Positions 30,235 to 49,106 of a stretch of 64,000 bases of DNA are shown piece by piece. The position numbers were made by a program, and so were the translations under genes. Positions within the stretch are counted from its first letter, which is position 1; each line of letters opens with the position of its first letter. Source of the DNA: Myxococcota bacterium (GTDB taxonomy: Bacteria; Myxococcota_A; UBA796); NCBI GenBank assembly GCA_029251165.1, contig JAQXDW010000054.1, positions 1-64,000 of the forward strand, written 5' to 3'. The notes beneath the pieces were generated by a model. That model did not search any database. It was not told where the DNA came from and worked only from the letters and a program-made list of their open reading frames with translations.

Positions 30235-30256
30235 CCACCCCGGCATGCCGGGGTGG
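30235..30256 (-). terminator. Perfect 22-nt palindrome at the rnpB 3' end (no U-tract)
   Basis: CCACCCCGGCA/TGCCGGGGTGG. Confidence 0.5.
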
Positions 30257-30695
30257 GTTGGAGGGGTCCGTAAGCCGAGTCTTGTTTCGCAGGTTTGTCT
30301 CCTCTCCTGCGACGATGATCATTCATCTAGGCCTGCCGTTACCGACAGGCTCGAGCGACCAACCCGGGAGTCTCGGGCGGACAGCCCTCAAACACCCCCA
30401 ATTAGGTCTTGCTCCAAGTGGGGTTTACCTGGCCGACCCTGTCACCAGGGCCGCCGATGTGCTCTTACCACACCGTTTCAGCCTTACCGACACCTTGCGG
30501 TGCCCCGACCCTCACCGCCACCATGCCCGAAGGTTTGTGACGGTGCGGAATCGGATGCGTACATGGCGGTCTGCTCTCTGTTGCGCTTTCCTCCGGGTCA
30601 CCCCGACCGGGAATTACCCGGCACCCTGTCCTGTGGAGCTCGGACTTTCCTCTCGTGAGCCGCTACAGCCCACCAGCGATCACCCTGACTCCTCC
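30256..30695 (-). ncRNA. rnpB: RNase P RNA (bacterial type A)
   Basis: Minus-strand signatures GAGAGGAAAGTCCGAGCTCCACAGGACAGGGTGCCGGGTAATTCCCGG, GGGTAAGAGC region, and 3' AAGACTCGGCTTACGGACCCC. Confidence 0.93.
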
Positions 30696-31635: not shown

Positions 31636-31709
31636 TAGGCCCACCAGGGCTCGAACCTGGGACCCTCCGGTTATGAGCCGGGTGCTCTAACCAACTGAGC
31701 TATGGGCCC
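31636..31709 (-). tRNA. tRNA with CAT anticodon (Met or lysidine-type Ile2)
   Basis: Reverse complement GGGCCCATAGCTCAGTTGGTTAGAGCACCCGGCTCATAACCGGAGGGTCCCAGGTTCGAGCCCTGGTGGGCCTA folds as a cloverleaf; anticodon CAT. Confidence 0.95.
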
Positions 31710-35657: not shown

Positions 35658-36965
35658 TTAACTCACCGCGCGCTGCTCGCTGAGGGTACCGACAGGAACC
35701 CGAGCATCGTCCGGGACTCGGGTCAGACACGCCCCGACAGCACGGAGCTTCTCGACGAGACGCTCATAGCCACGGTCGAGGTGATAGAGCCGCAGGATCT
35801 CAGTCTGCCCTCCCGCTGCAAGCCCAGCGAGGACGAGGCATGCACTGGCCCGGAGGTCGGTCGCCATGACCGTCGCACCGTTGAGCGCTGTGACGCCGGA
35901 GATCCGGGCGACGTTGTTGTTCGTGGCGATGTCTGCCCCGAGCCGACACAGCTCCGGAACGTGCATGAAGCGGTTCTCGAAGATGTTCTCTGCAACGTCA
36001 CACTCCCCCTCAGCCAGCGACATCAGGGACATCCACTGCGCCTGCATGTCGGTGGGGAAGCCGGGGTGAGGCTCAGTGGAGACCGAGACCGGCTTGAGCG
36101 GACCGGAGCGGGTAATCGTGACGCTGTCGCCGTCGATCTCCAGGTCACAGCCCGCATCGGTGAGCGCGGAGAGAACCGCCCCAAGCTCCGGCACCGGGGC
36201 GCCAGAGATGGTCAGCCGCCCCCCCGTGAGCGCGCCAGCGACGAGGTAGGTACCCGCCTCGATGCGGTCCGGGAGGATGCGGTGCGGGATTCGCGCCGGA
36301 CGGAGCGCCGGGACACCGTCGATCTCCAAGACGCTGGTTCCAGCCCCCTTGATGCGGGCGCCCATGGAAGACAGGAACCGGGCCAGATCGACAATCTCGG
36401 GCTCACAAGCGGCGTTGTGAATGCGGGTGATGCCTTCCGCCAGCACCGCAGCCATCAGGATGTTCTCCGTACCAGTGACGGTCGGCACGTCGAGGTGGAT
36501 CTCTGCACCGATGAGGCGATCGACCCGACCGTTGATGTAGCCATTCTCCAGCTTGAACTCACAGCCGAGGGCCTCGAGTCCCTTGAGGTGCTGGTCGACC
36601 GGACGGACACCGATGGCACAGCCGCCGGGGAGACTGACCCGCGCTTCACCGCAGCGGGCAAGCAGCGGACCGAGCACCAGGACGCTGGCGCGCATCTTCC
36701 GGACGACGTCATAGGGAGCCTCACAGAACGCGATCCGACTGGTGTCAAGCTTGACGCGCCCGCCAGCAACCAGAGATGGACAGCCGATTCGACCAAGCAG
36801 CGACAAGGTGAAGCTGATGTCGACGAGCGCCGGGACGTTCTCAATGATGTGCTCGCCAGGTGCGAGGAGGGTGGCGATGAGAATGGGCAGCGCCGCGTTC
36901 TTGGCGCCGCTGATCGGGACGATTCCGTTTAGGGGCTGGCCGCCCTCGATGACGAGCTTGTCCAT
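35658..36965 (-). CDS. murA: UDP-N-acetylglucosamine 1-carboxyvinyltransferase
   Basis: [50 protein letters not shown]...; [27 protein letters not shown]. Confidence 0.97.
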
Positions 36966-37171
36966 GGCTGGATCCTGTCTGGTGGGAGTGTCGCGGTCGC
37001 TGGTGGTGACGGGGGAGTGTCGCCAGCAAGTCGCGGGAGAGGCCCGACAGTATATCGAGTTTCCGGCACCTGCGGCGCACCGTCCCCGCTCGACTGGTGA
37101 CGGAGCGGGCGTTCGGTTGTGTCCCTTGTTTCGTATGCATGGCCTGTGCCACCCCCCCAGGATGCTCCCCC

Positions 37172-40100
37172 GTGCGTTACGATGGGTCTGTGGCAAGCGG
37201 CTCAGATGGACACCCCCAGCCCCCTCCCAAGCCTCAGGAGGGCTATCGGGGGCGTGATCTCACCGGCACGGACCTCTCAGGTGCGGAGCTGCAGGGCCAG
37301 AATTTCATCCAGGCCAACCTGACCGCAGCCAACCTCTCCGGCGCCAACCTCACCACCGCGCGCCTCCATGGTGCCCGGCTCCGAAGCGCAGACCTGTCCA
37401 ATGTTCAAGGTGAAGGCCTCGGTGCGAGAGAGGTCGACCTGGAGAGCGCCGACCTCACCGGTGCAGCCCTCCGCGCGGCACGCCTGACGGACGCGGTCCT
37501 CCTTGAGGCCAACCTGACCCGCGCCGATCTCCAGCAGGCGGACCTGTCTGGAGCCGATCTTCGCGCCTCGAAGCTGGTGGGTGCGAATTTATCTGGAGCA
37601 GACCTGTCCGGAGCCGATCTATCCGGAGCAGATCTCACCGATGCTGTGTTGGATGGCGTCCGGGCTCGTGGCGCGCGCATCGCCAACATCCAGGGTCTCT
37701 CCGAGGAAGCGCTCCAGGTGCTCCTTGATGCAGGAGCCACCAGCGGTGCACTCCAGCAGGCCACCGCAGCATTTCAGCGCGCCACCACGCGTCTGACAGC
37801 GGCGATCAGTGATCTTCGCTCGTCGGCAGACCGCCCCGCAGACGACCTCTCGACGGCGGACATCCCTGAATCGGACATCCCCGACTGGCGAGAGCGAACC
37901 TCGCGGCTGCAGCAGAACTGGCGCGAGAGCCGTCAGCGCGCCGCAGCGGCCCGGCAGCGTCAAGAAGAAGAGTGGATGGCACGGCGTGCAGCCGAAGCCG
38001 AGCAGCGTCAGTATCGCCGCGAAAACCGTGAAGAGTACCGCGAGGAGCGGGAGTCGCTTCAGCGCAAGGCCGCAGAGGTCCTCCAGCGCGAGCGCCAGCG
38101 GCTCCAGCAGCGGCGTCGTGCCGAAGAGGCCATCGAGGAGCAGACCAGCCGCCTCCTCCGGCAAGCACGCTTGGAAGCTCGCCAACGTTTCGAAGAGCAG
38201 GCGCGTGTCCAGGCCGCAGAGCAGGCAATGCAGCAGGCGGCTCAGGATGCCGTCGAGGCCGAGCGCCAGCGCATCGAAGCCGAGCGCCAGCGCATCGAGG
38301 CGAAGACGCAAGCCGAGCGCCTCACCATGCTCGCCCAGCAGCACTCCGCGGCAGCCACCCGGCTCAACGAGACCATTCGACACCTCTCAGAGGATGATCG
38401 TCGTCGCACTTCGGTTATTGAAGACCGTGCTGCAGAGCTCGACGACCAGCAGCGTCAGGTCGATGCCCTCCGCAGACGCCTCCTTCTCCTGGAGCGGACA
38501 CGGCACACGGAGGAGCAGAGCCCCACCAGCGATCGACTCGACGCCATCAACGCCCAGCTCACAGCGCTGAGCAGCGAAGAGCAGGCCCACAGTGCAGCAC
38601 TCGCAGAAAGCACGGCAGCCCTTGAGGATGCTCGCTCTGAGCGGAGGCGTCTCCAGGAGCGTCTGACCCTGACCCGCGACAAGGCTGGTGCTGCTGAGCA
38701 GCTCGCGGTGCAGACCGCAGCGCAGGCCGACCTCGCTCGGAACGCTGCCGGTACCGCTGAGCTCCCCGCGCTGCCCGCAGGCATGCTCCGGCGCCTGACC
38801 GATCGAAACTGGTTCGCCCTGACCGACCGCATCGGCCAGCAGAGCCCTCGGCTGGCCAATGCCCTCGACCACAGGCGAGAGCAGCTGCTTACCCTCCCGA
38901 GTCGACTCCGCAGCCAGTGGAGAGCTCAGGAAGCCGACGCAGACAAGAATGCCCAGAGTCGCATCGAGCGACGTCTCCGTCGACTCAGCCCCGACACCGC
39001 TCCCCCCCTCCCCCAGCGGCGAGCTGCGGCTGAGGAGCGGGTCCGCGCTGCGCTGAGTCGCGCTGAGGACAGCGGACTGCCACCGGACAGCAGCGCACTC
39101 GAGCGGCCGGCCGGCCCTGCCAAGCGCCTGTTCGACGCGATCTGGTACCAGGGAACAGACCTGCTCGCGGCGCTCAGCCGCCCGCTGGCGTCCCGCCTTG
39201 ACCGCCTCAAGGAGCGCCTGGAGTGGGAATTCATCTCTCGTCGCAGCGAAGCCGCCCGCCTGCTTGACCAGCAGCAGCGGGATGCCGAGCAAGCGCGGAG
39301 CAAGAACCGGATCGCCGAGCACAGCGTTCGGATCGGTCGCCTCCAGCGCCTCCGAGAGCGAGAAGAGACCCGAGCACAGCAGCGCGCCGCCGAGTCGGCT
39401 CGACGTGCCGAGGAAGCCGCCGAGAACCAGCGCCTCACCATGCTTCGTGCGCTCTCTGCTCCAGAGCGTCACGAGCGCCGTCGAGAGCAGTACAGCACCC
39501 GCACCGCACACACCACCATCGACCACCGTGGCGCGGACATGCGGGGGCGGAAGCTGACGGAGGTGGAGTGGGCCGATGCGGACCTCCAGGACGCTCGACT
39601 CGACAATGCCCGTCTCGACAACGCCGATCTCACCGCAGCCAACCTCCAGGACGCCTCCCTCGCCGGTGCTCGTCTGGATGGGGCAACCCTCGACGGCGCC
39701 ACGCTCGACCATGCCACCTTCGACGGTGCCCGACTTCGTCGCGCGTCCCTCCTCGGTGCCCAGCTCAGCAACGCTCGAATGGTCGATGTCGATCTTCGGA
39801 ACGCAGACCTCACCGGCGCAGACCTCACCGGCGCAGACCTTCGGGGGGCCAGCCTGTTTGGTGCAGCCCTCGCCGGTGCCAACCTCACCGCTGCGCGCAT
39901 GCCGAACCTGGAGCTGGAAGGCGTAATCCTCGACGGCGCGATGCTGGATCAAGCCGATCTCGCCGGTGTTCAGTGGAGCGGTGCGAGCGTGTCCGGCGCA
40001 GACCTGTCGGGCGCGCTGGGGCTGTCCGGGGCCACCCGCGAGGCGCTCGCGCGGCAGGGAGCACTGGCCGGTGATGTGGCGCTGGATGATCTGTTCAGCC

Positions 40101-43100
40101 GGCTCGGCTCTCGGCAGGTTCGAGTGGCTGCCGCAGTGCTCATCCTCGGCCTCACAGCCTTCCTGGCCACCAGCTACCTCACCGATGACACCCTCGACAC
40201 TGCTGCAGTCGAGGGACAAGCCGAGGAGCTGCGCAGCACCGACCCCCTCGCCGCCAGCGCGCTGTATCTGGAGCTCGCAGAGGCCGGCACCCGAATCGAG
40301 GAGCGCATCGCCTACCTCATCGAGGCCGCGGTGCTCGCAGATCAGGGCGGAGACTCCCCCCTCGCCAGCACGCTGTTCGCACGCGCCCTGGAGGAAGCCG
40401 GCGACGACGCCACCCTCGCTGCACGGGTTCGCCTTCGGCGGGCCAGCTTCTACGCCGACCATGACCGCTGGGAAGATGCCCTGGAGGCAGTGGACCCGGT
40501 CCTGTTCATCACCGGTCAGCCCACCGAGCAGCGTGCACGAGCGGTCCTCCTCTATGAGCGCATCAGCGCGAAGCTGGAGCAGCCTGCGGATCGCCTGGAG
40601 GCTGTGTTTGAGGAGCTAGACGGTCTACCGGATGCCGCTGCTGAGCTTCGGATGTCGCTGGCTGAGGTCCGCTCCGCTCAGGGGGAGATCGATGACGCGA
40701 TTGCCGAGCTCGCTCACATCGACAGCGCAACCATCTCCAGTGACCTCGCGCTGAGGGTCCTGGAGACCCGTGCGCGGGTGCAGGATCGTGGCGGAGACCT
40801 CGCTGGCTCAGCGGAGACCCTCGACGCGCTCACCGACGCCGCCGAGGAAGGGTCGCTGATGTGGCAGGCCGCTAGCCTCCAGCTCGCCGATCTCAAGCAG
40901 CGCGCTGGTGAGACCGAGGGAGCGCTGGCGTTGGTAGAGCGCATCCTCAACGACGAGCCCGATCCCCGCATCCAGGGCCGGGCACTTCTCGTTATCGCTC
41001 GCCTCCACGAGGGAGACGACGACGCCACCCAAGCTGCCGAGGCCTATCAGACACTGCTGGCAGCAGAGGGGCTTGATCAAGAGGTCATCGAAGAAGCCCG
41101 TGTCGGACTCGCCCGCATCCTGCTGAGCGACGGCGGCTCGGAGGCGGTCCAGGCTGCGCTCGCCGAGCTTCCTCCAGAGTACGCCGACCAGATCCTGGGC
41201 CAGGCGCGCCTCGGTGATGCACGCCGGATGCTCGACGATGGCGATCCGGCTGCGGCCCGCGTCCTCTATGAAGAGATCCTTGAGGCCAGTCAGCTCTCCG
41301 ACGCTCTCAGCCGCGCTGCGCGCTCTGGCCTCGGCGAGGCGCTCTCTGCGCTCGGGAATGCGGACGAGGCCGCACAGGTCTGGTCCGATCTACTCGCCGA
41401 GAGCCCTCCGCCGTCGGAGCGGGTCTACATCGAATTGCTGCTCGCCAGCGGACTGCTCCAGTCAGGCAAGCGCGAACAAGCGGAGACCGCGTTCACCTCT
41501 CTGGCGTCCTCAACGGAGCCGGAGATCAAGATCCAGGGCATCCTTGGTCTCGCAGAGGTTGCCCGGGCAAACAACGAGCGAGAGCGCTCCCGGGGGCTCT
41601 ACCAGAGCGTCGTCGATGACTCTGATGACCCTGCGTGGCAGGTCCAGGCCCTCCAAGAGCTCGCAGATCTCGCCCTGGAAGAAGATCGACTCCCAGACGC
41701 CATGGCAGCCTGGCGCACCGTCATCGGCCTCGTATCAGCCGGAGATCCAGCTGGAATCAGCGCTCGGCTCGCCCTGGTCGGTGCCATGGCAGAGCGCGGT
41801 CAGGCCGACCGAATCACTCAGTATTGCCAAGAGGCCACCGCAGCTGCTGCCACACAGCCGAGCATCTGGCAGACCTGTGCCGAGGCGCTGGAGCAGGCCG
41901 GAGAAAACGAAGCCGCGCTCTCCTCGTGGGAGTCCCTCACCGCTCTCGACTCTGACGAAGCCCTGGATGATGACATCTTCGCTGAGGCTGCCCTGGGCAC
42001 CGCTCGAGCGCTGACCAGCCTCGGCCGACACAGCGACGCGCTCGTCCGCTGCGATGAAGGCTTGAGCCGCAGCACTGACCCCACCGTCACCATGCTGCTG
42101 CTCTCCACCCAGATCGCCGCGGCGACCATCCTGGGGAACGATGCTGCGCTGTCCGAGGCCCTTGCCGCACGAGACGAGATGGCCAGCAACACCCCCCGAC
42201 TCGCTGCCGCGATCCTCCTGGAGTCGGCACAGCTCGCACGGGGTGCTGACGATCCCGACCAAGCGCTGGTTCTCCTGAGGCAAGCCATCGCGCTGCCACT
42301 GAGCGATGAGATGCGTGCAGGAGTGGCCTTGGAGCTCGGCGAGTCCCTCATCGACAGCGGGGCGCTCTCTGAGGCTGCCGCTCCACTCACCCAGGCTGCG
42401 GCCTCAGAAGATCCGCACACTGCCTTCGCTGCCAGCATGGCCCTCTCCGAGTTGTCACGCCGCAGCGGAGACATCACGGGTGCAATCACCCGGCTCAGCA
42501 AGCTCACTCCACCCGATGACGAGACCCGTCAGTGGTGGCTTGAGGCACAGGCCAGCGCGCTCACGGAGGCCGGCGACCCCGCCTCTGTGGAAGCGTGGGA
42601 GGCGCTGGCATCCTCCAGCAGCACAGACCCAGGACTCCAGAGCGCCGCGCTCCGCGGTCGAGCCGAGGCCCTCCTCTCTCAAGACCGGTTCGAGGATGCC
42701 CTGCCGCTGTTCCGTGAAGCCGCAGAAGCTGCCGCAGAGCCGTCGATGGTCGGCTGGGCACAGCTGGGTGAGGCCGAGGCCCTGCGATACCTGACCCGAC
42801 TCGACGAAGCGCGCACCCTCCTCTCGGAGCTCTCTGCGCACTCCGACCCCGAGGTCTCCCTTCAAGCGGCGATCCTGGTCGCTCGCCTGGAGCTCGATGC
42901 CGAGCAGCCCGATGAAGCCATTGCAGCGCTGCTGGATCGAGAAGCGACCACGATGGGCCCAGCCTGGGATGCCAGCCTCTGCGAGATTCGGGTCGCCGCG
43001 CTCCAAGAGGTCGACCGCGCAGCAGAGGCCCGCGCTGAGCTTGAGGCGCTTGCGGAGCGCTGGCCCGATGAGGAAGAAGCACAGCTTCCGGCCTGGCTTG

Positions 43101-43237
43101 GTCTCGCAGATCTCGCCCGAGATGACAACAACCCTGAAGATGCCCGTCGCTGGGCGGCCCTCGCTCTGAATTCCGCCCAGGATCCAGCCTATCGGGATCG
43201 GGCCCAAGAGATGGTGGATCAGCTCGGCGGAGAGTGA
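37172..43237 (+). CDS. ~2,000-aa modular protein: pentapeptide block, coiled coil, pentapeptide block, TM helix, TPR-like tail
   Basis: Single uninterrupted frame (37097-43237). Blocks such as ANLSGANLTTARLHGARLRSADLS and ADLTGADLTGADLRGASLFG; central Glu/Arg/Gln/Ala-rich coil; TM VRVAAAVLILGLTAFLATSYL; C-terminal helical repeats. Start codon uncertain. Confidence 0.85.
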   Translation: MRYDGSVASGSDGHPQPPPKPQEGYRGRDLTGTDLSGAELQGQNFIQANLTAANLSGANLTTARLHGARLRSADLSNVQGEGLGAREVDLESADLTGAALRAARLTDAVLLEANLTRADLQQADLSGADLRASKLVGANLSGADLSGADLSGADLTDAVLDGVRARGARIANIQGLSEEALQVLLDAGATSGALQQATAAFQRATTRLTAAISDLRSSADRPADDLSTADIPESDIPDWRERTSRLQQNWRESRQRAAAARQRQEEEWMARRAAEAEQRQYRRENREEYREERESLQRKAAEVLQRERQRLQQRRRAEEAIEEQTSRLLRQARLEARQRFEEQARVQAAEQAMQQAAQDAVEAERQRIEAERQRIEAKTQAERLTMLAQQHSAAATRLNETIRHLSEDDRRRTSVIEDRAAELDDQQRQVDALRRRLLLLERTRHTEEQSPTSDRLDAINAQLTALSSEEQAHSAALAESTAALEDARSERRRLQERLTLTRDKAGAAEQLAVQTAAQADLARNAAGTAELPALPAGMLRRLTDRNWFALTDRIGQQSPRLANALDHRREQLLTLPSRLRSQWRAQEADADKNAQSRIERRLRRLSPDTAPPLPQRRAAAEERVRAALSRAEDSGLPPDSSALERPAGPAKRLFDAIWYQGTDLLAALSRPLASRLDRLKERLEWEFISRRSEAARLLDQQQRDAEQARSKNRIAEHSVRIGRLQRLREREETRAQQRAAESARRAEEAAENQRLTMLRALSAPERHERRREQYSTRTAHTTIDHRGADMRGRKLTEVEWADADLQDARLDNARLDNADLTAANLQDASLAGARLDGATLDGATLDHATFDGARLRRASLLGAQLSNARMVDVDLRNADLTGADLTGADLRGASLFGAALAGANLTAARMPNLELEGVILDGAMLDQADLAGVQWSGASVSGADLSGALGLSGATREALARQGALAGDVALDDLFSRLGSRQVRVAAAVLILGLTAFLATSYLTDDTLDTAAVEGQAEELRSTDPLAASALYLELAEAGTRIEERIAYLIEAAVLADQGGDSPLASTLFARALEEAGDDATLAARVRLRRASFYADHDRWEDALEAVDPVLFITGQPTEQRARAVLLYERISAKLEQPADRLEAVFEELDGLPDAAAELRMSLAEVRSAQGEIDDAIAELAHIDSATISSDLALRVLETRARVQDRGGDLAGSAETLDALTDAAEEGSLMWQAASLQLADLKQRAGETEGALALVERILNDEPDPRIQGRALLVIARLHEGDDDATQAAEAYQTLLAAEGLDQEVIEEARVGLARILLSDGGSEAVQAALAELPPEYADQILGQARLGDARRMLDDGDPAAARVLYEEILEASQLSDALSRAARSGLGEALSALGNADEAAQVWSDLLAESPPPSERVYIELLLASGLLQSGKREQAETAFTSLASSTEPEIKIQGILGLAEVARANNERERSRGLYQSVVDDSDDPAWQVQALQELADLALEEDRLPDAMAAWRTVIGLVSAGDPAGISARLALVGAMAERGQADRITQYCQEATAAAATQPSIWQTCAEALEQAGENEAALSSWESLTALDSDEALDDDIFAEAALGTARALTSLGRHSDALVRCDEGLSRSTDPTVTMLLLSTQIAAATILGNDAALSEALAARDEMASNTPRLAAAILLESAQLARGADDPDQALVLLRQAIALPLSDEMRAGVALELGESLIDSGALSEAAAPLTQAAASEDPHTAFAASMALSELSRRSGDITGAITRLSKLTPPDDETRQWWLEAQASALTEAGDPASVEAWEALASSSSTDPGLQSAALRGRAEALLSQDRFEDALPLFREAAEAAAEPSMVGWAQLGEAEALRYLTRLDEARTLLSELSAHSDPEVSLQAAILVARLELDAEQPDEAIAALLDREATTMGPAWDASLCEIRVAALQEVDRAAEARAELEALAERWPDEEEAQLPAWLGLADLARDDNNPEDARRWAALALNSAQDPAYRDRAQEMVDQLGGE

Positions 43238-44737: not shown

Positions 44738-44898
44738 CGTTTTCCTCCGTCTTCAAACACAGATTACCCCACCCGCATCTCCTTACAAAAGCGGACCTCA
44801 ATCAACCAACCTGATTTTGATCCCCATTATTCTCAAAGAACGTGCTCGTTCATCCGTTGAGTATTGTGTGCGTGTACTCGCTGAGACTTGGAGCAGAG

Positions 44899-45888
44899 AT
44901 GGACTACGGGACCCTGCTAGATGAACCAGGAATCAGCATCACGGGCGAGGCCACCTCACACCCAACCTTGATCGTTCTGTCTGGGTCACGATCAGGGCAG
45001 TGCTTCCGACTCGAGCCCGGTGAGCACGTCCTCGGACGAGGCTGGGATGCCGACCTGTTCCTTGATGATGAGAGCGTCTCTCGTAAGCATGCAGAGTTCA
45101 CCGTTACCCAAGATGGGCAGTACTTCGTCAGAGACCTCAACAGCACCAACGGCACCAAGGTCAACGGCGAGCCCATCGCGACCGAGCGTCGGCGAATCAC
45201 AATCGGAGACCGCATCCGCCTCAGCGCAACCGCCAGCGTGAAGCTTCGGGTCCAGGACACCACCGAAGAGAAGCTTCAGCAGAACCTGTACAACATGGCG
45301 ATTCACGATCCGCTGACGGGTGCCTTCAACAAGCGCTATCTCGCCGAGCGAATCGACCAGGAGGTCGCATTTGCCTGGAGGCGCGGTCGCCCCCTCTCAC
45401 TCATCATCCTCGACATCGATCGCTTCAAGCAAGTCAACGACAACTATGGTCACCATGTCGGCGACGAAGTCCTCCGAGAGGTCGCGCGCTTCGTCCAGAG
45501 TTCTCTGCGACTTGAAGACATCTTCTCCCGCTTCGGTGGAGAAGAGTTCGTCGTGCTAATGCGCGACACCGACACCGAGATGGCCCGTCAGGTCGCTGAG
45601 CGGCTCCGGTGCGGGATCGAAGATCTCTCTATCCAATCTGGTGAGCAGAGCCTGTCCGTGACCATCTCGGCAGGCATCGCCGTGACCACCGACTCCACCT
45701 GCACCTCTTCGATGGATCTGTTCTCTCAGGCTGACCGCCGGCTGTATACCGCAAAGAACACTGGACGAAATCGAGTCGTCATCACCGACACACCCGAGAC
45801 CGCAGAGCTCACCAAGGCCGAGGCCGAGGCCGCAGAGCACACCGAGGCCGAGGCCGCAGAGCACAGCGGACTAAACACAGCGGACTAA
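44899..45888 (+). CDS. FHA-GGDEF diguanylate cyclase
   Basis: FHA: LGRGWDADLFLDDESVSRKHAEFTV...DLNSTNGTKVNG; GGDEF: DPLTGAFNKRYL...ILDIDRFKQVNDNYGHHVGDEVL...FSRFGGEEFVVL. Confidence 0.94.
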   Translation: MDYGTLLDEPGISITGEATSHPTLIVLSGSRSGQCFRLEPGEHVLGRGWDADLFLDDESVSRKHAEFTVTQDGQYFVRDLNSTNGTKVNGEPIATERRRITIGDRIRLSATASVKLRVQDTTEEKLQQNLYNMAIHDPLTGAFNKRYLAERIDQEVAFAWRRGRPLSLIILDIDRFKQVNDNYGHHVGDEVLREVARFVQSSLRLEDIFSRFGGEEFVVLMRDTDTEMARQVAERLRCGIEDLSIQSGEQSLSVTISAGIAVTTDSTCTSSMDLFSQADRRLYTAKNTGRNRVVITDTPETAELTKAEAEAAEHTEAEAAEHSGLNTAD

Positions 45889-46691: not shown

Positions 46692-46760
46692 CCGGTGAAC
46701 CGGGAATGCCCCGCCCTATGCTCCGGGTTACCCACTTCCGAATACCCTGAGGTACCGGTC

Positions 46761-49106
46761 ATGCGCCCAATCACTCTCCTCGCGCTGCTCATCGGCTGCG
46801 ACGACTCTCCGCCAGCCTCCGAGACACCGGCTTCCGAGACACCGGCTTCCGATACGCCCGTTCCCGTGGCAACCGGTCCCTCCATTGTGCTCATCACCCT
46901 CGATACCACCCGAGTCGATCACATCGGCGCGTATGGACATGAGCCTGCCCGCACACCGGTCATCGATGGCCTGGCAGCTGAAGGCATCCGGTTCGAGCGC
47001 GCCTACTCGACGGTGCCCCTGACCACTCCAGCCCATGCCTCGATCCTCTCCGGTCTCTACCCCCCTCGGCACGGCATCCGGAACAACGGCGACGCCATCC
47101 TCAGCGACACAATCACCACCTTCCCCGAGCTGCTCTCAGGGGCCGGTTACCGAACCGCAGCATCGGTCTCTGCGTTCGTGACGACGAAGCTCTGGAACCT
47201 CGATCAGGGCTTCGACAGCTACTTCGACGAGGTCCAGGCTGCCCAGCCAGGCAACCGATGGGGGCAGGAGAGACCGGCCAATGAGGTGGTCGACGATCTC
47301 CTCGGCTGGATGGACGAGTCAGACAACGCCAGCAGCCCGTTCCTTCTGTGGGCGCACTTCTACGACCCCCATCACCCCTACGCCTCTCCGGAGCCCTACG
47401 CCTCGGAGTTCGAGGATCCCTACGACGCAGAGATCGCCTTCGTCGACGCGCAGATCGCGCGGCTCAAGGAGCGGGTCGATGCTGCGGCCAATCCCGAGGG
47501 CACCATCTGGATCGTGGTCTCCGACCACGGAGAGGCGTTTGACCGCGAGCACGGTGAGCACACCCACGGCCTGTTCGTGTTCGATCCCACCATGCGGGTG
47601 CCGTTCATCGTGCGCCCGGCAACGCCGCTGAGCGAGCCGGTGGTGGTCTCCGATGCGACGGTCAGTATTGTCGATGTCGCACCGACGGCGCTGAGCATGC
47701 TCGGCCAGGCCGTCCCCGATGGACTCGACGGTGTCGATCTCTCTCCAATGCTCACGGCACCAGACACCGCCCGCAAGGGGGTCTACATGGAGGCCCTCTC
47801 TCCACAGCAGCGCTTCGGCTACCACCCGGAGATCGCGGTTGCAGAGGGGCCCCTCAAGCTCATCGACACCCCCTCTCCTCGCCTGTTCGATGTCGTCGCG
47901 GATCCCGGTGAGCTGACCAACCTCATCGGCCAGCACACCGACGCCGAAGCCCGAATGCGTACGATCGCCCAGGAGACCTGGATCTCAGCCAGCACCGATG
48001 GCGAGGCCATGGCACCAGAAGTGCTCGAGCAGCTCGCGGCCCTCGGCTATGTCAGCAATGACTTCACCCACGACGAGTCCGCAAGCACGGTCGATGCCAA
48101 GGACAAGATCGATGTCATCAGCGCCATTGAGGACATCCGAGCAAAGATGATAGAGGATCAGAACTTTGCGAAAGCAGAGGCCGCCTACCGCGTCCTCCTG
48201 GAGAAAGAGCCTTCTCTCGCAGAGGCTCGGATGGGCTTGGCTCGGGCGCTGGGTGCTCAGGGCAAGGATGCGGAGTCTGAGGCGATCTACCGCGAGGCCC
48301 TTGAGCTGCAGCCCACGTCCTCAATCCTTCGCGTCAACCTCGCCAATGTCTTGGCGGCCCAGGATCGTCACGAAGAAGGACTCGCTGAGATAATGCAGGT
48401 CCTCGAGCAGGTCCCTGGCGACAACAACGCCCAGACTGGCACGCTGCGGATGATGACCGATCTGGGCAGAGAAGATGAGGCCCTCGCCCTGGCGAGAACA
48501 TGGCTCTCCGAGAAGCCCGGTGACCATGGACTACAGGCTCATATCGGCGTGCTCCTGTCCCGTAAAAAGGAGTACGAAGAGGCGTACACGCTGCTCAAGA
48601 AGAGCACGGAGGATGACGTCCCCCGGCAGCTTGTCCATCGCTCCCTGGCGCTGCTTGAGATGCAGAAGAACCATCCCCGCCTTGCGCTGCTGCACTACCG
48701 CAAGGAGCTGCAGTACTTCCCACGGGATGCAGAGATGCACCTCAGCTGCGCCCGGATTCTGATGAGCCTCAAGAACTGGGAGGAGAGCATCAAAGAGTTT
48801 ACGCAGTACAACAAGCGGGTCCCGAACAACGTCATTATCCGACGTCCCTGGGCGCAGGCAGTCTTCAACACCAAGGACTATCCTGCGGCGGCTGCGGTTC
48901 TTGCCCCGGCGCTCGCAGCCTTTCCCGATGATCCAGACGTCCTGCTCCTGCACGCCAACATCTTGTCGAAGCGTGGCAAGAAAGCGGAGGCAACGGAGGT
49001 TGCAGCACGGGCCAACAAGCTGAACACCGAGCGGGTCGAGACCATGAAGAAACGCCTCCCCGCGGGGACTCCGGACCCCCAGGCTCCTCCTACTGATGCT
49101 CCTTGA
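46761..49106 (+). CDS. Sulfatase-family lipoprotein with C-terminal TPR domain
   Basis: Lipobox MRPITLLALLIGC; SIVLITLDTTRVDHIGAYGHEPARTPVIDGLAAEGIRFERAYSTVPLTTPAHASILSGLYPPRHGIRNNG; TPR-like C-terminal third. Confidence 0.93.
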   Translation: MRPITLLALLIGCDDSPPASETPASETPASDTPVPVATGPSIVLITLDTTRVDHIGAYGHEPARTPVIDGLAAEGIRFERAYSTVPLTTPAHASILSGLYPPRHGIRNNGDAILSDTITTFPELLSGAGYRTAASVSAFVTTKLWNLDQGFDSYFDEVQAAQPGNRWGQERPANEVVDDLLGWMDESDNASSPFLLWAHFYDPHHPYASPEPYASEFEDPYDAEIAFVDAQIARLKERVDAAANPEGTIWIVVSDHGEAFDREHGEHTHGLFVFDPTMRVPFIVRPATPLSEPVVVSDATVSIVDVAPTALSMLGQAVPDGLDGVDLSPMLTAPDTARKGVYMEALSPQQRFGYHPEIAVAEGPLKLIDTPSPRLFDVVADPGELTNLIGQHTDAEARMRTIAQETWISASTDGEAMAPEVLEQLAALGYVSNDFTHDESASTVDAKDKIDVISAIEDIRAKMIEDQNFAKAEAAYRVLLEKEPSLAEARMGLARALGAQGKDAESEAIYREALELQPTSSILRVNLANVLAAQDRHEEGLAEIMQVLEQVPGDNNAQTGTLRMMTDLGREDEALALARTWLSEKPGDHGLQAHIGVLLSRKKEYEEAYTLLKKSTEDDVPRQLVHRSLALLEMQKNHPRLALLHYRKELQYFPRDAEMHLSCARILMSLKNWEESIKEFTQYNKRVPNNVIIRRPWAQAVFNTKDYPAAAAVLAPALAAFPDDPDVLLLHANILSKRGKKAEATEVAARANKLNTERVETMKKRLPAGTPDPQAPPTDAP

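Follow-up and report, generated by a model that had tools for sequence, protein, structure and literature searches.

The window, the whole stretch of 64,000 nucleotides that was analysed, contains one uninterrupted frame for a protein that carries, in this order, a pentapeptide-repeat (PRR) block, a charged helical linker, a second PRR block, a transmembrane (TM) helix and a tetratricopeptide-repeat (TPR) tail (Table 1), and that we regard, with moderate confidence, as an inner-membrane scaffold or tether particular to its lineage. An AGGA lies 9 nt upstream of the GTG start of the frame, which is already open from position 37097, and a Pfam scan of the protein returned pentapeptide and TPR domains only, with no catalytic domain. 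AlphaFold2, run on two overlapping parts (residues 1-1001 and 945-2021), agreed with Pfam on the modular build. Both the frame of about 6 kb and the PRR-rod-PRR-TM-TPR layout proposed in the first-pass annotation hold, the coordinates matching within a few residues. An assembly artefact joining separate genes, which that annotation had named as the outcome that would overturn it, was rejected, since many other genomes encode orthologues in which a single frame carries the parts in this order. The PRR and TPR components are already known, yet no description of the PRR-TM-TPR combination was found in the literature searched.

Table 1. Features of the PRR-TPR gene, its product and its neighbours in the window
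Feature	Position in window	Strand	Basis
Whole gene, 2,021 aa, GTG start	37172..43237	+	Single open frame
PRR solenoid I, residues 28-174, about 29 pentapeptides	37253..37693	+	Pfam, AlphaFold2, Foldseek to solved PRR proteins
C-cap helix I, GLSEEALQVLLDAGA region, residues 178-186	37703..37729	+	AlphaFold2, cap comparison
Charged helical linker, residues 192-761; longest helices 239-403 and 649-761	37745..39454	+	AlphaFold2, periodicity analysis
PRR solenoid II, residues 783-944, about 32 pentapeptides	39518..40003	+	Pfam, AlphaFold2, Foldseek
C-cap helix II, GLSGATREALARQGA region, residues 953-961, family-conserved	40028..40054	+	AlphaFold2, orthologue comparison
TM helix, residues 981-1003	40112..40180	+	AlphaFold2, hydrophobicity, charge bias
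TPR superhelix, 28 helical hairpins, residues 1010-2021	40199..43234	+	Pfam, AlphaFold2, Foldseek
Cys1552-Cys1569 pair on two helices of one hairpin	41825..41878	+	Conserved in 10/10 f1/f5 orthologues
murA, divergently transcribed neighbour	35658..36965	-	Adjoins the gene in 16 genomes of f1, f2, f5 and f6
FHA-GGDEF protein gene, downstream	44842..45888	+	Often the same-strand downstream gene at f1/f5 orthologue loci

The TM-TPR part recovered orthologues in families f1 and f5 (36-43% identity) and, at greater distance, full-length ones in families f2, f3, f6 and f7. The PRR-TM-TPR order is conserved across f1, f2, f5, f6 and f7, and orthologues sharing it thus occur in further families of the order and the class. 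When 284 genomes of the phylum were searched with a profile of the tail, matches were confined to the class (E down to 0), and no full-length match was found outside it among the genomes sampled. In this search, none of the 14 genomes of family f4, which belongs to the same order, carries the gene, which is therefore not essential to the order, while family f9 gave partial weak matches only. The tree of the tail largely follows the families, with 5 label changes, the least possible, against a mean of 13.5 after shuffling, which points to vertical inheritance. Overall, the sequences argue for a vertically inherited family that, among the 284 genomes of the phylum sampled, is confined to one class. 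One member (L035, from G014) consists of the TM-TPR part preceded by a short N-terminus without PRR. Separately, in G036 the orthologue beside murA (L033) is disrupted by stops and shifts of frame, and another contig carries a further, fragmentary copy (L016).

The linker, measured between the first and last PRR blocks, varies in length: about 190 residues in L029 and L030, 642 in the window protein by the repeat pattern used for this comparison, 1,827 in L031 and 2,374 in L043. This is a more than tenfold range, over which the second PRR block, the TM helix and the TPR tail are kept. The linkers of L031 and L043 contain internal repeats of 120 and 145 residues, and these rods therefore grew by tandem duplication. 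The description of the window linker as a charged coiled coil is partly supported: it is a strongly charged helix (E+R 31%), but its hydrophobic periodicity is weak and near 3.70 rather than the heptad 3.5 (1 of 300 shuffles as strong). A period of 3.52 was obtained for the L031 linker (0 of 300 shuffles as strong), and no hydrophobic periodicity signal was seen for those of L043 and L073 in the same shuffle analysis. "Rod" is therefore a safer term than "coiled coil" for what these sequences suggest.

The gene lies directly divergent from murA in 16 genomes (Table 1), often within a block rpoD-dnaG-murA; in six f4 and two f9 genomes no homologue is found at the murA locus. The murA linkage alone prompts the guess that the protein acts near wall synthesis or peptidoglycan growth, and the linkage may simply reflect conserved gene order. 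Two RNA genes, the only hits of an Rfam search of the window, lie among the housekeeping genes of its rpoD block: an RNase P RNA (30256-30695, - strand) and a tRNA (31636-31709, - strand). On the other side, a gene for an FHA-GGDEF protein follows directly on the same strand in L029, L031 and L037, and is found nearby in L033 and in the window, where a radical-SAM gene on the other strand separates the two. Further downstream (46695-49106, + strand), the window encodes a sulfatase domain fused to TPR repeats (803 aa), a gene also seen near f5 orthologues.

The FHA-GGDEF neighbour, together with the bitopic layout, would suit a signalling receptor, in which the periplasmic TPR part senses a partner or wall fragment and the rod relays its state to the PRR blocks and to the FHA-GGDEF cyclase. 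We consider this unlikely: no such neighbour was seen at those f2 loci that were examined, Pfam detects no known signalling output domain in the protein, and a rod as variable in length as that described above would be unusual for a signal-transmitting helix.

The TPR-like tail of about 1,000 residues anticipated by the first-pass annotation is borne out by both Pfam and structure prediction. The window protein scores 61.3 bits on TPR_19 (cut-off 25), and in the AlphaFold2 model of residues 945-2021 (mean pLDDT 89.8) the TM helix is followed by 56 helices, that is 28 hairpins, so that the tail shows both marks of the TPR superfamily, a tandem array of helical hairpins each some 34-36 residues long and a score on TPR profiles. 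Foldseek matched it to large scaffold proteins of the TPR kind, IFT-A and SKI subunits among them, and also, with an E value of 2.5e-9, to 9hmf_K, a periplasmic scaffold of the Campylobacter flagellar motor. This last match could suggest a motility scaffold, like PflA/PflB of that motor or part of a gliding machine; it is, however, one among hundreds of TPR matches. In addition, genomes including G008, G011, G017, G024, G027, G033 and G058 carry the gene without a FliG match, while many f4 genomes have FliG but not the gene. A flagellar role is disfavoured because FliG does not co-occur with the gene, and we hold the motility reading as a whole to be quite improbable. MreB is present universally, hence it gives no information on the gene's role.

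With regard to topology, the TM helix lies at residues 980-1000 in one AlphaFold2 model and at 981-1003 in the other, and the flanking charges favour an N-in/C-out orientation in 22 of 25 members, against a single contrary case and 2 ties (L072 was omitted from this count); family f2 shows a weak bias. All four cysteines of the window protein lie in the tail, the first 1,003 residues having none. Two of the four, Cys1552 and Cys1569, each 8-9 residues from the turn, face each other across one predicted hairpin, which is where one would look for a disulfide formed in an oxidising compartment. Family f2 conserves a different set of cysteines. The earlier proposal that the PRR and rod parts are cytoplasmic and the TPR tail extracytoplasmic is thus well supported by the charge bias and the conserved cysteine pair, both read from sequence. 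Moderate TM hydrophobicity in several members would allow instead that the protein does not cross the membrane at all, the hydrophobic helix being packed between the PRR and TPR parts with everything in the cytoplasm. Against this stand, besides the cysteine pair, (i) the hydrophobic 19-mer with an outward charge gradient found at the same place in nearly all members, and (ii) the low model confidence just before the TM helix, which suggests that it does not pack on its neighbours; we give this alternative little credence. The claim of one TM helix holds for the window protein, but possibly not for all members, since L029, L030, L068 and L070 have an extra hydrophobic stretch in the linker and their topology may differ from the one-TM layout.

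In the PRR blocks, PF00805 matched in 8 stretches (E 3.1e-61), and the AlphaFold2 model of residues 1-1001 (mean pLDDT 71, with values mostly >90 for the PRR solenoids and lower ones for the linker) has beta-bridges every 5 residues throughout both solenoids. Foldseek superposed the PRR part on the solved structure 4yc5 with 0.7 A rmsd over 161 columns, and the blocks are thus predicted to form the right-handed quadrilateral beta-helix. That they act on gyrase as DNA mimics like Qnr, MfpA or AlbG, with the remainder serving as an anchor, is highly improbable: MfpA and QnrB1 structures were indeed matched, but the top-ranking hits were PRR proteins of designed or cyanobacterial origin, and the blocks are embedded in a giant membrane protein. 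The short motif after each block, previously taken as the tail of a duplicated module, corresponds to the C-terminal cap helix of that solenoid. The number of blocks ranges from one up to four among orthologues; in L034, which has four, each ends in a GLS...GA type cap, and a similar cap helix also follows an unrelated PRR protein (L004) of the same genome as the window. The duplicated PRR-plus-cap module is therefore real, although the cap type is not unique to the window protein. When plasmids were searched with a PRR query, 205 records matched the repeats; among the matches listed, all stop before the cap helix and none is an orthologue.

The genome of the window (G000) is rich in PRR proteins, with 56 query matches, most to other pentapeptide-repeat frames. 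A 998-aa frame (L083:956-3949, - strand; contig C101) encodes an N-terminal PRR domain followed by an entire RecQ helicase (with DEAD, Helicase_C, zinc-binding, RQC and HRDC domains), a curious fusion because PRR proteins can mimic DNA. Another (L084:2712-6146, - strand; contig C125) encodes a Ser/Thr kinase, an nSTAND1 NTPase and pentapeptide repeats in one frame of 1,145 aa, and a third (L094:962-2449, - strand; contig C75) an FGE-sulfatase domain fused to pentapeptide repeats.

To return to the reading of the protein as an inner-membrane scaffold or tether, its anatomy, conservation and gene order are computational results, while a protein-binding scaffold is what we infer from the predicted fold, since each half is built of repeats and has no catalytic domain; it counts against this that partner binding by TPR and PRR folds is known from many settings other than scaffolds. 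The N-terminal half would lie in the cytoplasm, with two stiff PRR beta-helices capping the ends of a long charged helical rod; one signal-anchor helix would span the inner membrane, and the TPR superhelix, about 1,010 residues long, would form a protein-binding platform in the periplasm. The rod would set the cytoplasmic reach, the PRR blocks would bind partners or self-associate via their caps, and the TPR spiral would collect periplasmic partners, so that an envelope process would be placed with respect to something cytoplasmic. More tentatively, the family may represent an undescribed cytoskeleton-like, membrane-crossing scaffold of one class, with PRR end-blocks, an extendable rod and a 28-hairpin periplasmic TPR platform. 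In such a scaffold, tandem duplication can lengthen the rod to more than 2,300 residues, some 350 nm as one straight helix. Most pentapeptide repeat proteins have no known function (PMC8145042). As the PRR blocks are the conserved end-pieces of a murA-linked and vertically inherited membrane protein whose rod length evolves freely, a structural role of PRR solenoids becomes testable here. A trans-envelope scaffold would, in turn, point to a lineage-specific organisation of the envelope in a poorly studied class, represented here mostly by metagenome-assembled genomes.

Compared with known systems, the protein has genuine PRR and TPR domains, yet by the features tested it does not fit Qnr/MfpA, FimV/HubP or PflA/PflB. 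With the PRR superfamily (PF00805; 4yc5, 2j8k, HetL 3du1, MfpA) it shares the A(D/N)LxG repeats, the four-sided beta-helix and the C-terminal cap helix (PMC8145042); it differs in being a 2,021-aa membrane protein with two solenoids, or more within the family, spaced by a long rod, and the words "tetratricopeptide" and "coiled" are absent from the text of that review. The gyrase-protecting Qnr and MfpA proteins are free-standing and about 200 aa long, unlike the PRR blocks of the window protein, which are embedded in a chain of 2,021 aa. PflA/PflB resemble its tail, predicted to be periplasmic and membrane-anchored, in their long TPR superhelix, but no close sequence relationship is shown and the presence of the family does not track flagellar FliG; we know of no PRR half in PflA/PflB. 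The polar hubs FimV, HubP and TspA, presumed to act as such, are very long proteins with one TM helix, TPR units and a length-variable acidic or helical region. The window protein is like them in its single TM helix, great length, TPR units and length-variable region, but its TPR and rod parts lie on the opposite sides of the membrane from theirs, the TPR side being predicted outside and not cytoplasmic, and Pfam detects in it no LysM domain, which FimV/HubP have on the periplasmic side. YfgM, a small bitopic inner-membrane protein, has the N-in/C-out orientation and the periplasmic TPR-like helical repeats proposed for the window protein, which differs from it in its far greater size and in carrying PRR blocks and a rod.
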